64,000 nucleotides of DNA from Enterococcus malodoratus ATCC 43197 (GTDB lineage Bacteria; Bacillota; Bacilli; Lactobacillales; Enterococcaceae): NCBI RefSeq assembly GCF_000407185.1, contig NZ_KE136481.1:1155636-1219635 (forward strand), given 5' to 3'. Of this stretch, positions 1,160 through 32,518 are shown in pieces. Position 1 is the stretch's first letter; every line of letters begins with the position of its first letter. The position numbers were made by a program, and so were the translations under genes. Under the pieces are notes generated by a model, which was given only the letters and a program-made list of their open reading frames with translations, did not search any database and was not told the origin of the DNA.

Positions 1160-2452
1160 CTAGATGAGATATGTTTTCGTGAAGTAGTTTCCTGCATATC
1201 TCAATGTATCGAGATAGTGATTGTATTTATCTATAGGCAACCCGTTATCTTTTCTAACGTACATACCTATTTCTTTAATTGCATTATAAAAATCGTATTC
1301 ATTTTGGCCGGTATATAAAAATAGAACCTCTTTTGTCAAAAGATTCTGCACTCGCTCGATTCCAACTTCTATTCTCATACCGTTACTACTAATCTTGTCA
1401 CGGGAGTTATTGTCTGCAGCATCTGTCATAATTCCAATAAGATGTAGTTCTTCTCTTAAAGTCTTACAAGCTGGATCGACAAAGAAATAATTATAATGCG
1501 GATAGTTCCATTTTGAGTAACACCATTCTTTAAACAGTTTGATATCCTTTGCATAGGTGCTCATAGCCTTCACAACGCCTGTATCTGCTCCACTGTGGTA
1601 ATAGTTCGCTAGTTGATATAAATAATACTGTCCTCTATCAAACGTCACTAAACAGAAAGTACAGGTCGTAGCATCTGATTGACCTCCATCAGCAACAAAG
1701 AACGTTTCAATCGGTCTGCCTTTAATTGCATTCTTCATATGCTTATCTGTATCAAACATTGAGTAGATGACACCTTCTGGCATGACTCGTTCGCCTCTCC
1801 AATCCCGCTTAAGTAGATAATCAGACGTTTCGCATTGTTGTTTCCACATCTTTAAACGTTCGCCAGTTAATATGGGGTTATCAGTTGGACGCCAATGTCT
1901 GAATCTATAAGTGTTTGTTTTCTCGAACTGGTTCAATAGTTCTAAATTCGGATGATTGGGAGCTGGTGGGTTTTGTTCACCCAAATGAAACCGCATCTTG
2001 CTGGCCAGTGTTCGCCTGAATGATTCGGCTATCACTTCTTTGTTTAATAAATTAAACTCTAAAAAAGTGACGGTTCCAAAAGACATACCAGTTATACTAC
2101 CGACAGCATTTACTTTCCCTCCACCTTTATAGTAAATTCGTTTTTCATTTCCTTTACCAAAGTTAATCCAAAGGTGATCACCATTTTCGTTATGCCGAAT
2201 TTCTGAATTATTTTTGAATATATTCATCAAACCGAATCCTTCGCCATCAATGAACATTCGATAAGCCTGCTCTTGGTTATAAGCTAATACTAGATGATCT
2301 CTGTCTGGTGACTTGGCATAGATACGAGCCATCTTGAAAATATCACTCATGGTTTTACCCGATCGGATCGTACCCTCGTTCAATTCAAATTCAACTCCAG
2401 TGATATCAGATCCGATGTTATCCACCTGTTTTGGGCTAAATGCTATCGACAT
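1160..2452 (-). CDS. Terminase large subunit
   Basis: This 430-residue protein is the DNA-packaging motor and headful/cos nuclease that docks on the portal. Residues 26-34 (EGTIRSGKT) form the deviant Walker A typical of PBSX-type terminases. A hydrophobic strand with an acidic residue near 127-136 (E132) is the likely Walker B. The C-terminal half carries an RNase H-like nuclease with D255 in FFVADGGQSD and a later acidic FFVDPA motif. The length is normal for the family. The ATG overlaps the 3' end of the small-subunit gene by 17 bp, which suggests translational coupling. The portal follows directly. Confidence 0.95.
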   Translation of the reverse strand: MSIAFSPKQVDNIGSDITGVEFELNEGTIRSGKTMSDIFKMARIYAKSPDRDHLVLAYNQEQAYRMFIDGEGFGLMNIFKNNSEIRHNENGDHLWINFGKGNEKRIYYKGGGKVNAVGSITGMSFGTVTFLEFNLLNKEVIAESFRRTLASKMRFHLGEQNPPAPNHPNLELLNQFEKTNTYRFRHWRPTDNPILTGERLKMWKQQCETSDYLLKRDWRGERVMPEGVIYSMFDTDKHMKNAIKGRPIETFFVADGGQSDATTCTFCLVTFDRGQYYLYQLANYYHSGADTGVVKAMSTYAKDIKLFKEWCYSKWNYPHYNYFFVDPACKTLREELHLIGIMTDAADNNSRDKISSNGMRIEVGIERVQNLLTKEVLFLYTGQNEYDFYNAIKEIGMYVRKDNGLPIDKYNHYLDTLRYAGNYFTKTYLI

Positions 2453-2972
2453 CTATATCACTCTCCTCAATTGGAAGATTCACTAAAGCATCAAGCAACT
2501 CATTTTGTTGAGCATCTTCTGACAATTTATTAGCTTTGTCTCGAAGAATCGCTGCTTCTGCTTGAGCTTTTTCAAGCTGCGCTTTTAACAACGGACTAGC
2601 ATACTTCAAAAATAGATCAATTGCTTTTAATCTATTCTCTAAATCTGGGGTGTATTCGTACGTCATATCTTTAACGATTTTATCGCCCTCTAAGTGGTCT
2701 ATTTGTTTGCTACGGCTGATCATCGTTTTCCCGTCGTATATATCCAAAAGACTATTCAATTGTTCTTGTACATCCGTATTTCGCTTTTCAATGACAGGAG
2801 CTACCTTGTTAGCGATATATTCCACGACCTTAACATTTCTTAACAGTCGACTTGCTGTTGCTTCGGCAGTTTTTTTGCTGTATCCAGCTTTGATGGCGGC
2901 TTGTGTGGCATTACCACCATTAATAATATATTCATCTGCAAAAGCTTTTTGTCTTGTGGTTAAGTTTGCCAC
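2436..2972 (-). CDS. Terminase small subunit
   Basis: This 178-residue protein recognises phage DNA at the packaging start site and hands it to the large subunit. The N-terminus (TTRQKAFADEYIINGGNATQ, followed by AAIKAGYS) is the classic Terminase_2 helix-turn-helix signature. It is followed by an arginine-rich recognition helix, a central alpha-helical oligomerisation part and an acidic C-terminus that would contact the large subunit. The gene is second in the late transcript and overlaps the large-subunit gene by 17 bp. Confidence 0.95.
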   Translation of the reverse strand: MANLTTRQKAFADEYIINGGNATQAAIKAGYSKKTAEATASRLLRNVKVVEYIANKVAPVIEKRNTDVQEQLNSLLDIYDGKTMISRSKQIDHLEGDKIVKDMTYEYTPDLENRLKAIDLFLKYASPLLKAQLEKAQAEAAILRDKANKLSEDAQQNELLDALVNLPIEESDIDVDSI

Positions 2973-3276: not shown

Positions 3277-3304
3277 CATTAATAAATTGTTTACGTTCCA
3301 CGGA

Positions 3305-3335
3305 TAGATCGCTGCGGAAACAGCGGTCTATTTTT
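3305..3335. repeat. Ten-base-pair hairpin with a T run on the plus strand
   Basis: TAGATCGCTG (3305-3314) pairs with CAGCGGTCTA (3321-3330), with one wobble or mismatch, around a 6-nt loop. It is followed by five T residues on the plus strand. On that strand it could stop stray transcription entering the early region. On the minus strand it lies between the upstream terminator and the late promoter. Confidence 0.5.
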
Positions 3336-3340
3336 GTACG

Positions 3341-3370
3341 CAAAATAAAAACAGCCTCACGAGGAGACTG
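3341..3370 (-). terminator. Intrinsic terminator after the FtsK-gamma-like gene
   Basis: Minus-strand CAGTCTC (3364-3370) pairs with GAGGCTG (3352-3358, one G-T pair) and is followed by TTTTTATTTT. It abuts the stop codon at 3371 and separates the ArpU/structured-RNA transcript from the terminase transcript. Confidence 0.65.
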
Positions 3371-3529
3371 CTAAACTAAGCCTTCATTCTTTAACTGCTC
3401 ATATAGCTTTGTTGCTCTGTTAATTCCAATTCGCATTCTGTGTTGTAAATGAACTGGCTTTAATTTTTGTTCAACCCCGTTAAAGTCAATTGCTATCTTT
3501 CTAGCTTCACTAATTAATTCATCGTCCAT
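3371..3529 (-). CDS. Small winged-helix protein resembling the FtsK gamma domain
   Basis: The 52-residue product starts MDDELISEARKIAIDF and continues HRMRIGINRATKLYEQLKNE. This resembles the C-terminal gamma domain of FtsK/SpoIIIE, whose recognition helix reads KOPS/SRS sequences. I chose the ATG at 3529 because GGAGGA lies 8-10 bp upstream; a longer frame reaching 3610 lacks such a site. The gene is alone between the structured RNA block and a terminator. A sequence-specific DNA-binding role in packaging or late control is inferred. FtsK-gamma-like orphans are known in phages. Confidence 0.7.
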   Translation of the reverse strand: MDDELISEARKIAIDFNGVEQKLKPVHLQHRMRIGINRATKLYEQLKNEGLV

Positions 3530-3615
3530 AATTATTTTTCCTCCAATAATCGGCCATCGAAAATGTAGGTTTTCGGCCAAAATAAAAAGACCACCGAAGC
3601 GATCTTGCATATGTA

Positions 3616-4063
3616 TTGGATAGACAGGGTTACCGATTCTATCCCAGTCATCGTGGAATTAGTTTAATTACTAACTCCGACCATCTAACCAAATATGTAT
3701 TAAGCAACCTTACTCCATTATGGAACCCACTGTTACTCCATGCCTGGCAGATGGGAATGCTCGGTTGCTGCATCATTCGTTCACGCTTAACGGTGGTGAA
3801 ACACCTAAGTCACTGGCAAGGAATCAAACCTTGCTCATCGGGAAAGAGTCGTCACCTGTCAATCCCTTAATAAGCTCCAACGCCCTACGTTTTTAGCATT
3901 GGCTACCTATGCGTTAATCCTTCCGCCACAGTGACATAAAGACGGCACGTGAACTTTAAAAGAAATGGAGCTTTTCAACTCCATTCATCATTTATTTTTT
4001 TGCGTGCCGCCAATTAATCGGACAACTACATAAGTTTTTAGTTTGTAGTCAAGTTGTTGTCCG
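3616..4063 (-). ncRNA. Candidate large structured phage RNA (five closed modules)
   Basis: About 530 bp between the small winged-helix gene and arpU hold no plausible gene. Read on the minus strand, they hold five successive domains, each closed by a long-range helix. These are 4019-4063 (8 bp CGGACAAC/GTTGTCCG), 3941-4011 (9 bp, with an inner 6-bp hairpin), 3809-3935 (7 bp, tRNA-like), 3703-3769 (7 bp AGCAACC/GGTTGCT) and 3616-3692 (8 bp with one mismatch, inner 9-bp hairpin at 3655-3678). The last module is flanked by 9-nt direct repeats ATATGTATT at 3609-3617 and 3693-3701. A promoter-like pair lies upstream at 4107-4135. Size, density of helices, phage location and a tRNA-like part recall the GOLLD and ROOL RNAs, but I cannot confirm either family. 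Confidence 0.6.
3809..3935 (-). ncRNA. tRNA-like module, class II-like, 127 nt
   Basis: GTCACTG (5') pairs perfectly with CAGTGAC (3') as a 7-bp acceptor-like stem. It is followed by TG and a leucine/serine-like D arm (GCGGAAGGATTAACGC, with GG in the loop). A T-arm GCAAGG-TTTGATT-CCTTGC stands at the other end. Between them is an extended arm with CCAATGC/GCGTTGG around a 12-nt loop, and a weakly paired variable region. The whole is 40-50 nt longer than a class II tRNA. There is no encoded CCA, the T-stem has 6 bp, and no clear 7-nt anticodon loop is visible. I therefore call it tRNA-like and not a tRNA. Confidence 0.55.
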
Positions 4064-4106
4064 GATTAACTAACTTTTTGACACTATCATAATAACTCGT
4101 TTTATC

Positions 4107-4135
4107 AGCATATGATCAGTAGTTTTTCACGACAA
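4107..4135 (-). promoter_or_regulatory. Candidate promoter for the structured RNA
   Basis: Minus-strand TTGTCG (4130-4135) and TATGCT (4107-4112) are 17 bp apart; each matches consensus at 4 of 6 positions. It lies between the arpU stop and the first RNA module. Read-through from arpU is the alternative, since no terminator is visible after arpU. Confidence 0.4.
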
Positions 4136-4147
4136 AGTCCCGATGTT

Positions 4148-4618
4148 TTACCGGAATTTCAACAATTCTAGTGCTGAGGCAAATTGAATAATTGATTTCG
4201 TGGACTCTTGGGATACTAAATCTTCGCTGATGTGTAAACGTTGTGCTGTAACATAAATTGAATTTCCCAAGATATAACGATCGTAAAAGATTCTTTTTCG
4301 TCTGGTAGTTATCTCTGGCTTGAATGGATGCTGGATAACGGAAAACCCTTTTTCAAATAGATTGTGCAAATAGTCAAATTCCTCTTTGGCCTCTTCGTTT
4401 TGAATGAGAATTTCCTCAGCTTCACCTTGGTTTGTGTTTGCTGTGCTAGGAGGAATGAGCGAAAAGCTGCTTGTCACTTTGGGTTCCCTTGGTTGCCCGA
4501 CACGGCTTCTTGCTGGCAGATAGGCTGATAAAAATACACCCACGTTATATTTTGTTTTTTCTATGTCTACACTTTTTGGATCTGGGACCTCATATTTGCT
4601 AACATCGAAAAGTACCAT
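4148..4618 (-). CDS. ArpU family phage late transcriptional regulator
   Basis: This 156-residue protein resembles ArpU, the autolysin regulatory protein family first described in Enterococcus hirae and found at the early/late junction of many Gram-positive prophages. It switches on packaging, structural and lysis genes. The C-terminal third (YDRYILGNSIYVTAQRLHIS followed by EDLVSQ) has the sigma-factor-like helix-turn-helix of the family. The gene is the last protein gene before the packaging module, and a late promoter lies downstream. The ATG at 4618 has GGGGGAAT upstream. Confidence 0.85.
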   Translation of the reverse strand: MVLFDVSKYEVPDPKSVDIEKTKYNVGVFLSAYLPARSRVGQPREPKVTSSFSLIPPSTANTNQGEAEEILIQNEEAKEEFDYLHNLFEKGFSVIQHPFKPEITTRRKRIFYDRYILGNSIYVTAQRLHISEDLVSQESTKSIIQFASALELLKFR

Positions 4619-4640
4619 GACCGCGATTCCCCCTTATGAT

Positions 4641-4685
4641 ATACTAAAAATGCGAATAATTAGTATCAGCCGGAGGAATCCGGCT
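4641..4685. promoter_or_regulatory. Two inverted repeats upstream of arpU
   Basis: ATACTAA (4641-4647) and TTAGTAT (4660-4666) form a perfect 7-bp inverted repeat with a 12-bp spacer, 23 bp upstream of the arpU start. Next to it AGCCGG/CCGGCT (4668-4685) forms a 6-bp hairpin followed by T residues on the plus strand. The first could be an operator for arpU. The second overlaps the 3' end of the preceding gene's transcript. Confidence 0.45.
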
Positions 4686-4688
4686 TTT

Positions 4689-4859
4689 TTATTTTTCACT
4701 TACAAGACCTGCATTAACTAAATTATTCAAATATCTCAGTTGTTGTTTTACATAGAAATCATCTTTACAGCACTCCAAACGATGATTTACATCTTGTAAT
4801 ACCTCTAATGGAAAATTATACTTAGCAATCAACGAGTTTATTTCATCTATTGTATCCAT
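4689..4859 (-). CDS. DUF6877-like small phage protein
   Basis: This 56-residue helical protein (start MDTIDEINSLIAKYNFPLEV) resembles the DUF6877 proteins found in enterococcal and other Lactobacillales phages. Its function is unknown. The ATG at 4859 follows GAGGTCAAAGGT and is 4 bp from the stop of the preceding 32-residue gene, so the cluster is tightly packed. The family assignment is from memory. Confidence 0.7.
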   Translation of the reverse strand: MDTIDEINSLIAKYNFPLEVLQDVNHRLECCKDDFYVKQQLRYLNNLVNAGLVSEK

Positions 4860-32353: not shown

Positions 32354-32358
32354 AACAA

Positions 32359-32430
32359 CTGGGGTAGCTGGATTCGAACCAACGCATGAGGGAGTCAAAG
32401 TCCCTTGCCTTACCGCTTGGCTATACCCCA
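32359..32430 (-). tRNA. tRNA-Gln (anticodon TTG)
   Basis: The 72-nt cloverleaf has acceptor TGGGGTA/TACCCCA, anticodon loop CTTTGAC (TTG) and T-arm GGTTCGAATCC. The CCA is not encoded. Confidence 0.95.
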
Positions 32431-32434
32431 AAAA

Positions 32435-32518
32435 TGGTGGAGGAGAGTGGATTCGAACCACTGAACCCTAAGGAACGGATTTACAGTCCGTCGCGTTTAG
32501 CCACTTCGCTACTCCTCC
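32435..32518 (-). tRNA. tRNA-Tyr (anticodon GTA)
   Basis: A class II tRNA of 81 nt plus encoded CCA (32435-32437). It has acceptor GGAGGAG/CTCCTCC, anticodon loop CTGTAAA and a long variable arm. Confidence 0.95.

Follow-up and report, generated by a model that had tools for sequence, protein, structure and literature searches.

tRNA-framed RNA elements with varied contents, one of them between the late activator and terminase genes of Enterococcus malodoratus

Between the genes for a late transcriptional activator and the terminase of Enterococcus malodoratus ATCC 43197 lies an interval that has the appearance of a large structured RNA rather than of genes, and the question is what kind of RNA this might be. 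The window analyzed is the whole stretch of 64,000 nt (assembly GCF_000407185.1, contig NZ_KE136481.1, positions 1,155,636–1,219,635 of the forward strand), and coordinates refer to it. On the minus strand, positions 3616–4063 are non-coding and comprise five folded RNA modules in a row, with the late activator on one side and the terminase genes on the other. The original prediction had placed a block between a late regulator and terminase genes, and protein family matches on both sides (phrog_248 upstream, PF03592 downstream) agree with this. The features of the region, in 5' to 3' order of the minus strand, are:

4148..4618 (minus): late transcriptional activator (ArpU-like), upstream of the block; phrog_248, E 9.7e-25
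4019..4063 (minus): Module A, 8-bp hairpin; z −3.3
3941..4011 (minus): Module B, hairpin GGCGGCACG..CGTGCCGTC with an inner GGAG hairpin; z −5.7
3809..3935 (minus): central module, tRNA-like RNA with cargo, 127 nt; the cloverleaf is the minimum free energy (MFE) fold
3703..3769 (minus): Module D, frame AGCAACC..GGTTGCT, a second frame type; z −1.9
3616..3692 (minus): Module E, two hairpins, alternative partners for TCTATCC; z −3.3
3587..3606 (minus): intrinsic terminator closing the RNA block; terminator scan
3371..3529 (minus): small FtsK-gamma-like gene, with its probable corrected start; PF09397, 28.0 bits
2991..3215 (minus): small phage gene in the interval between the RNA block and TerS, a marker in the neighbourhood count; phrog_1202, E 6e-38
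2436..2972 (minus): terminase small subunit (TerS); PF03592, E 4.2e-26
1160..2452 (minus): terminase large subunit; phrog_10250, E 9e-50, and phrog_2, E 6e-28

Coding potential and folding of the interval

ORFs of at least 40 aa are few and short in the gap from 3611 to 4147 (84 and 58 aa on the plus strand, 42 aa on the minus strand), which bears out its description as ORF-free. The minus strand from 3600 to 4080 has a folding energy of −151 kcal/mol, compared with −118.7 ± 6.4 for 100 shuffled sequences (z −5.0), and since the plus strand of the block likewise beats its shuffles (z −4.2), energy alone does not fix the strand. A scan of 3300–4700 found no promoter-like site on the minus strand. 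In Rfam searches of the whole window and of the block, no family reached its gathering score within the block, the few sub-threshold matches there were to unrelated families, and the Rfam covariance models gave no ROOL or GOLLD match at E-values up to 5; the idea that the block is itself one of these large RNAs therefore fails.

When the modules were folded singly, four of the five closing helices formed as they had been drawn in the original prediction. The fifth, the outer helix of Module E (3692–3616, TTGGTTAGA/TCTATCCAA), is doubtful because it contains one mismatch and because the MFE structure uses its 3' strand instead in an inner GGATAGA/TCTATCC hairpin. Module E is present also in loci L002 and L004. 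Module B adjoins the 5' side of the tRNA-like RNA in the window and in L014 and L015, and its matches were found in L003, L005, L008–L010, L014, L015 and L029. The fold of Module D is only weakly above shuffles (6 of 200 were as good). Frames of its type (GCAACCGAG..GTAGGTTGC) have no T-arm and hold varied contents: the 105 loci with such frames, some of which overlap, yield 39 distinct units that fall into 16 groups. Of 106 units, 100 occur together with the tRNA-like frame, a figure that is not independent, the loci having been found by that frame.

The block had also been predicted to end just before a small FtsK-gamma-like gene and a terminator. The terminator (3606–3587) does end the block, and a similar sequence, GATCGCTTnGGCGGTCTTTTT, follows the rows of L002, L007 and L015; the FtsK_gamma score of the gene, 28.0 bits, lies below the cut-off of 30.6. 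The terminator sits in the first 24 bases of the frame drawn for this gene, which therefore likely starts at the ATG at 3529, behind GGAGG. An imperfect inverted repeat (GGCCGAAAA..TTTTCGATGGCC, 3552–3578, minus strand), which is a possible operator, lies between the terminator and this start.

The tRNA-like central module and its relatives

Folded alone, the central module (3935–3809) forms a cloverleaf of −42.6 kcal/mol (z −2.9; 2 of 200 shuffles were as good), with the following parts in 5' to 3' order:

3929..3935 (minus): 5' strand of the acceptor helix, GTCACTG; pairs 7 of 7 with 3815–3809
3911..3926 (minus): D-arm, 3-bp stem GCG/CGC and loop GAAGGATTAA, tRNA-Leu-like; from the fold
3870..3910 (minus): cargo part 1, extended arm in the anticodon-arm position, apical loop AAAAACGTAG; from the fold and family A2
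3840..3866 (minus): cargo part 2, second hairpin GGGA..TCCC in the variable-arm position; from the fold and family A2
3816..3834 (minus): T-arm, 6-bp stem GCAAGG/CCTTGC with 7-base loop TTTGATT; from the fold
3809..3815 (minus): 3' strand of the acceptor helix, CAGTGAC; the next base is T and CCA is not encoded; from the sequence

U8-G9 follow the 5' acceptor strand, and the acceptor and T stems make a stack of 13 bp, compared with 12 in tRNA. Where a tRNA has its anticodon arm with a 7-nt loop, the MFE fold has a longer arm in two parts, and its apical loop is 10 nt. Neither ARAGORN (tRNA and tmRNA genes) nor the Rfam tRNA and tmRNA models at gathering score made a call at the central module. 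Two ordinary tRNA genes, for Gln and Tyr, are found elsewhere in the window (32358–32518, minus strand).

A genome-wide search with the block returned mainly partial matches with differing sequence in between. Elements with the frame of the central module were gathered by exact-pattern scans of IMG/VR (among the matches listed) and of 84,980 species genomes, and by covariance-model searches. At least 212 distinct elements with a 6-bp T-stem, the window included, were obtained from phages, prophages and some chromosomes, and they carry 76 different acceptor sequences. At least 289 loci lie behind them, some overlapping (the scanner tally is 307 places, overlapping loci included), and many of the IMG/VR contigs are metagenomic, with no named host. 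The scanner limits the length of an element; with no limit, two neighbouring units were chained into a 315-nt artefact that merged two cargo groups. Among the species genomes the exact pattern occurred in 11 stretches, nine of them in Enterococcus and one an ordinary tRNA-Leu.

The central module scores 65.9 bits with covariance model R1 and 44.8 bits with R2, partly by construction, the window being a training row of both. Because both models also match ordinary tRNA-Leu, tallies from the model searches are not prevalence figures; a match of at least 54.6 bits was present in 42 of 395 Lactobacillales genomes (a hand count, inspected in part). Bit score was no clean separator in the phylum search, where two 84-nt tRNA-Leu genes (L474 and L475) score 56.0. 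Nine non-tRNA matches above 52 bits (L449–L457, Bacilli) all have a 6-bp T-stem. Of further matches in the phylum search, the stem is of 6 bp in L469 and L476 and of 5 bp in L472; the scanner did not parse L470, L471 and L473.

Acceptor pairing was assessed in a sample not conditioned on it, in which the D-arm was matched exactly and the T-loop core, which fixes two T-stem pairs, was the sole other anchor. There were 118 exact D-arm occurrences in 117 of the 120 IMG/VR loci listed, and in 65 distinct sequences the T-loop core follows. The 7-bp acceptor is perfect in 51 of the 65 and has at least six pairs in 58. The mean is 6.63 of 7 pairs, compared with 3.73 ± 0.16 in 1000 permutations of partners, under which perfect acceptors numbered 3.3 on average and 9 at most. 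The pairing falls in the register of a 6-bp T-stem. Fifty D-arm occurrences have no T-loop core and include, by eye, ordinary tRNA-Leu, truncated contigs and elements with other T-loops. In the environmental sequences L343, L362, L383 and L373, the D-arm is followed by GGTGAC.., and at the point where closure of the T-loop is expected the sequence runs on, as though the T-arm held a second insert.

Alignment A3 (69 sequences) consists of the window and 68 of 94 selected relatives, the longer ones, those with 6-of-7 acceptors and the window's duplicate being left out. It has 277 cells changed on both sides, compared with 66 ± 11 after shuffling (score 0.684 versus 0.168), a covariation that is partly circular, as its acceptors were preselected for pairing. 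Frame covariation in A1 and A3, the rows of both having been required in advance to pair in the acceptor, is far above shuffles and slid controls. On reversed DNA the scanner found no 6-bp element and one 5-bp element, and on shuffled tails 3 of 1379 D-arms yielded an element. One acceptor mismatch is present in 26 of the 212 elements. D-loop and T-loop types change together, as expected if the two loops touch: D-loops of the AGG type go with TTCGATT or TTCGAAT T-loops (19/19), those of the xTAG type without GG with TGCxATx or GGCxGTx T-loops (19/19), and TAGG D-loops with TGCAAAT (81/88), in a tally that makes one count per cargo group and combination, with D-loop classes set post hoc and kinship ignored.

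The frame consists of a 7-bp acceptor helix of almost any sequence, U8, a 3-bp D-stem, matched D- and T-loops, and a T-stem that is usually 6 bp. In the central module, a 7-bp acceptor, D-arm and T-arm likewise surround a cargo, and its own fold gives the same cloverleaf. The existence of the class is well supported. The original prediction is right in part: the late region does hold a new block of structured RNA, one module of which is tRNA-like, and what is conserved is structure, not a reading frame.

The class resembles tRNA-Leu (RF00005) in its acceptor, U8, D-arm with 3-bp stem and position of the T-arm. It differs in its T-stem (usually 6 bp, rather than the 5 bp of tRNA), and it has no normal anticodon arm, a cargo of 18–197 nt replacing both this arm and the variable region. 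A73, which has a role in the leucine identity of tRNA, is not conserved in the class (base 73 is T in the central module), and CCA is almost never encoded. A 6-bp T-stem is found in 179 of 188 distinct elements longer than 95 nt (the scanner gives a small bonus to 6), and a 5-bp stem in 106 of 139 shorter ones, most of which are 80–86 nt, as is tRNA-Leu. Encoded CCA occurs in 2 of the 212 elements (at either of two positions), compared with 43 of 115 five-bp matches (at one position), and the base after the acceptor is T in 106, A in 84, G in 14 and C in 8, compared with A in 110 of the 115. Nine of the 188 long elements have a canonical 5-bp T-stem; the 13-bp stack is therefore not universal, and some members of the class could be charged. 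The 5-bp element of phage Lbab1, which ROOL adjoins, is annotated as tRNA-Ser and reaches the Rfam tRNA cut-off (32.9 bits); its frame is canonical, and its cargo resembles that of L053 by eye. A 289-nt tRNA-Leu-like match with a 5-bp T-stem (L425, 6153–6441) may be an intron-bearing tRNA-Leu, the intron appearing by eye to be of group I.

Transfer-messenger RNA also has a tRNA-like end without an anticodon, and a large insert. The class shares these features with tmRNA (RF00023), and phage tmRNA lies in the same island in EFDG1 and EfV12-phi1, but ARAGORN and Rfam make no tmRNA call, the insert is hypervariable and the stack is 13 bp. The tRNA-like structures of plant RNA viruses, which are 3' ends of RNA genomes, likewise put the tRNA shape to a non-decoding use, whereas the class comprises loci of DNA phages with swappable inserts. 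ROOL (RF03087) and GOLLD are described as phage non-coding RNAs near tRNA genes or islands (PMC12286853). Elements of the class share this setting, and ROOL adjoins one in L040 and Lb338-1, but they match neither model and are small tRNA-framed units rather than one large ornate RNA. Rli28 (RF01492, near the element in L013) and mcrA RNA (RF03010, near that in L297) are neighbours only and different RNAs.

Cargo diversity and genomic settings

Many unrelated cargos are found in one and the same frame, and certain cargos sit in several frames. With BLAST, the cargos of the 212 sequences fall into 112 groups whichever of two thresholds is applied. Of these groups 84 have a single member, and divergence varies from group to group, some sequences of the same group differing little. 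More than one acceptor was found in 14 groups, and in eight of these the acceptors differ at three or more of the seven positions. One cargo is common to L311 (from the taxonomic family of the window), L476 (from another class of the phylum) and L411 (an IMG/VR contig). In A4, a Lactobacillus cargo group with four acceptors, cargo helices covary: in the 7 of 8 members analyzed, paired changes affect 16 of the 30 pairs predicted, those of the frame among them.

The cargo of the window is shared by seven sequences, the window included (family A2). The apical loop AAAAACGTAG is unchanged in all seven and few stem pairs vary. In cargo part 1, pair 40/55 is GC in three, AU in three and GU in one, and pair 39/56 is UG in four, UA in two and CG in one; in part 2, the inner pair 85/90 is UA in five and CG in two. 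Only 2 of 38 pairs are changed on both sides in these seven sequences, and most cargo helices of the window are invariant. Two members, in phages EfV12-phi1 and EFP01, differ from the window in both the D-loop and the T-loop of the frame. A second copy of nearly the same cargo is present in the window's own genome (G000:C1:706667-706793, locus L014), and is followed by different modules.

Many temperate-type contigs carry the element near the junction of late activator and terminase genes. An element is present in 99 of the 120 IMG/VR loci listed, and 54 of these have 2.5 kb downstream; a homologue of a terminase-side gene lies downstream on the same strand within 3 kb in 39 of the 54, and a homologue of the window's activator lies upstream in 10 of 58 listed loci with upstream room, these counts covering homologues of the window's own proteins. 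Among named phages, the gene before the element is annotated as ArpU, RinA-like or activator in JNU_P10, VEsP-1, EG-TP1 and D6E and as DUF1492 in H1-Guo, and is unnamed in R29.1; in EH-TP1 the activator-type gene lies one gene further away, and in Listeria phage B054 the element overlaps the edge of gp75. A terS gene is annotated downstream of it in JNU_P10 and H1-Guo. RNA annotation is absent at all 12 named-phage copies examined.

Large phages carry the element beside tRNA, tmRNA or ROOL RNA. In EfV12-phi1, EFP01, EFDG1 and Lb338-1, which we take to be lytic Herelleviridae, it lies in or near tRNA clusters. ROOL ends 13 nt before the element in the prophage contig L040 and 62 nt before it in phage Lb338-1; in EfV12-phi1 about 6 kb separates the two, which share a strand within a single RNA island. 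In EFDG1, the tmRNA model ends at the first base of the element. The tmRNAs of EFDG1 (L433, 2151–2501) and EfV12-phi1 (L484, 5605–5955) are missing from the feature tables. Two ROOL copies were used in BLAST searches of phages to find ROOL-bearing records, and in one of these, EF1TV, the scanner found no 6-bp element in 6.6 kb, R2 matching only annotated tRNA-Leu. Three partial matches were seen in plasmid records of E. raffinosus.

A chromosomal copy occurs in one genus, probably Listeria-like (L302, L306, L318 and L319). L302 and L318 were checked: in both, the copy comes after azlC and azlD (PF03591 and PF05437) and has their orientation. These genes function in branched-chain amino acid transport, and the presence of a Leu-tRNA-shaped RNA beside them may or may not be due to chance. 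A hairpin and T-run can be read by eye after the element; a simple scan of the site gives neither a terminator nor a promoter on the plus strand.

Possible roles and alternative explanations

The reading that we favor, at a probability of about 0.6, is that a tRNA-derived frame matures, protects and swaps trans-acting cargo RNAs, the transcription, processing and function of which we infer. Judged from position and strand only, the block would be made late: transcription of the RNA row would form part of that of the late region and end at the row's own terminator. The host's enzymes of tRNA maturation, RNase P at the 5' end and RNase Z or exonucleases at the 3' end, could recognize the tRNA-like elbow and separate the units, which the elbow might then protect once they are cut out. 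The cargo would act in trans on host molecules as a decoy, inhibitor or structural RNA, and phages would exchange cargos by recombination within the shared frame. A role in decoding is not envisaged, because the RNA has no anticodon, no conserved A73 and a 13-bp stack. As possible evidence of expression, lnc002 of phage K was considered, a non-coding RNA published as lying beside tRNAs (PMC9241854), and no element of the class lies inside it. An RNA-seq study of Enterococcus prophages reports prophage non-coding RNAs, none of which the accessible part of the article places between activator and terminase (PMC8554106).

The frame might instead mimic tRNA as a decoy against defences that cut or sense tRNA, with the cargos as baits for anticodon or variable-loop nucleases, which is a narrower version, a special case, of the cargo model. 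The tRNA-like elbow, the diversity of cargos and their presence among phage tRNA genes fit such a role, as does the reported cleavage of the variable loop of tRNA-Tyr by Septu (PMC13096335). However, the cargos inspected by eye do not, as a rule, resemble anticodon arms, and a copy beside azlCD in host chromosomes is unlike what a phage decoy predicts, making this narrower role unlikely. In the window, as in many contigs, the element lies just ahead of the terminase genes, which could also point to a function in cis, as DNA or mRNA, in the packaging region (a pac or cos site, or a leader controlling terS), and the EG-TP1 and VEsP-1 records end 56 and about 315 nt beyond the element. Yet in EFDG1 the element is about 10 kb from terL, on the opposite strand and among tRNA genes; in Lb338-1 it lies at about 21.7 kb, within a region (10–40 kb) that has no annotated terminase, many genes there being 'unknown'; the chromosomal copy is beside azlCD; and in the window a terminator parts the row from the terminase genes. 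We regard a cis-acting element as very improbable.

Decayed or intron-bearing tRNA-Leu genes would account for the likeness of the D- and T-arms to tRNA-Leu, for the phage copy annotated as tRNA-Ser and for the intron-bearing appearance of L425. Under decay, however, 7-bp helices would not have stayed complementary in 51 of 65 sequences, nor does decay fit cargo groups that are conserved across frames, and ARAGORN finds no gene at the elements in the window and loci submitted, leaving this origin extremely unlikely. That the block belongs to GOLLD or ROOL is barely conceivable: ROOL does adjoin elements in L040, Lb338-1 and Lbab1 (the 5-bp element) and shares an island with one in EfV12-phi1, but the Rfam results for the block speak against it, as do its dimensions, about 450 nt in five separate modules. 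A packaging site, decayed tRNAs and ROOL membership all fit poorly with the spread of places and the covariation.

A tRNA-framed family with exchangeable cargo is apparently undescribed, no description of such a class having been found in Rfam 15 or in the open-access literature searched, which is not the whole literature. To our knowledge, no natural RNA family combines a constant tRNA frame with contents that can be exchanged. The class would be a kind of phage RNA that is neither tRNA, tmRNA nor a large ornate RNA, and the shared frame makes diverse cargos findable by one search, so that their targets become testable singly. It also gives a new angle on the clustering of ROOL, tmRNA and tRNA genes in phage islands. 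A wider reading, on which we are evenly divided, is that phages of Bacillota use the tRNA-derived frame as a general carrier, a natural counterpart of the engineered tRNA scaffold, by which unrelated functional RNAs would be matured, protected and traded; the activator/terminase rows and the tRNA islands would be the sites of exchange, and at least one host genus would have kept one such RNA as a gene of its own.
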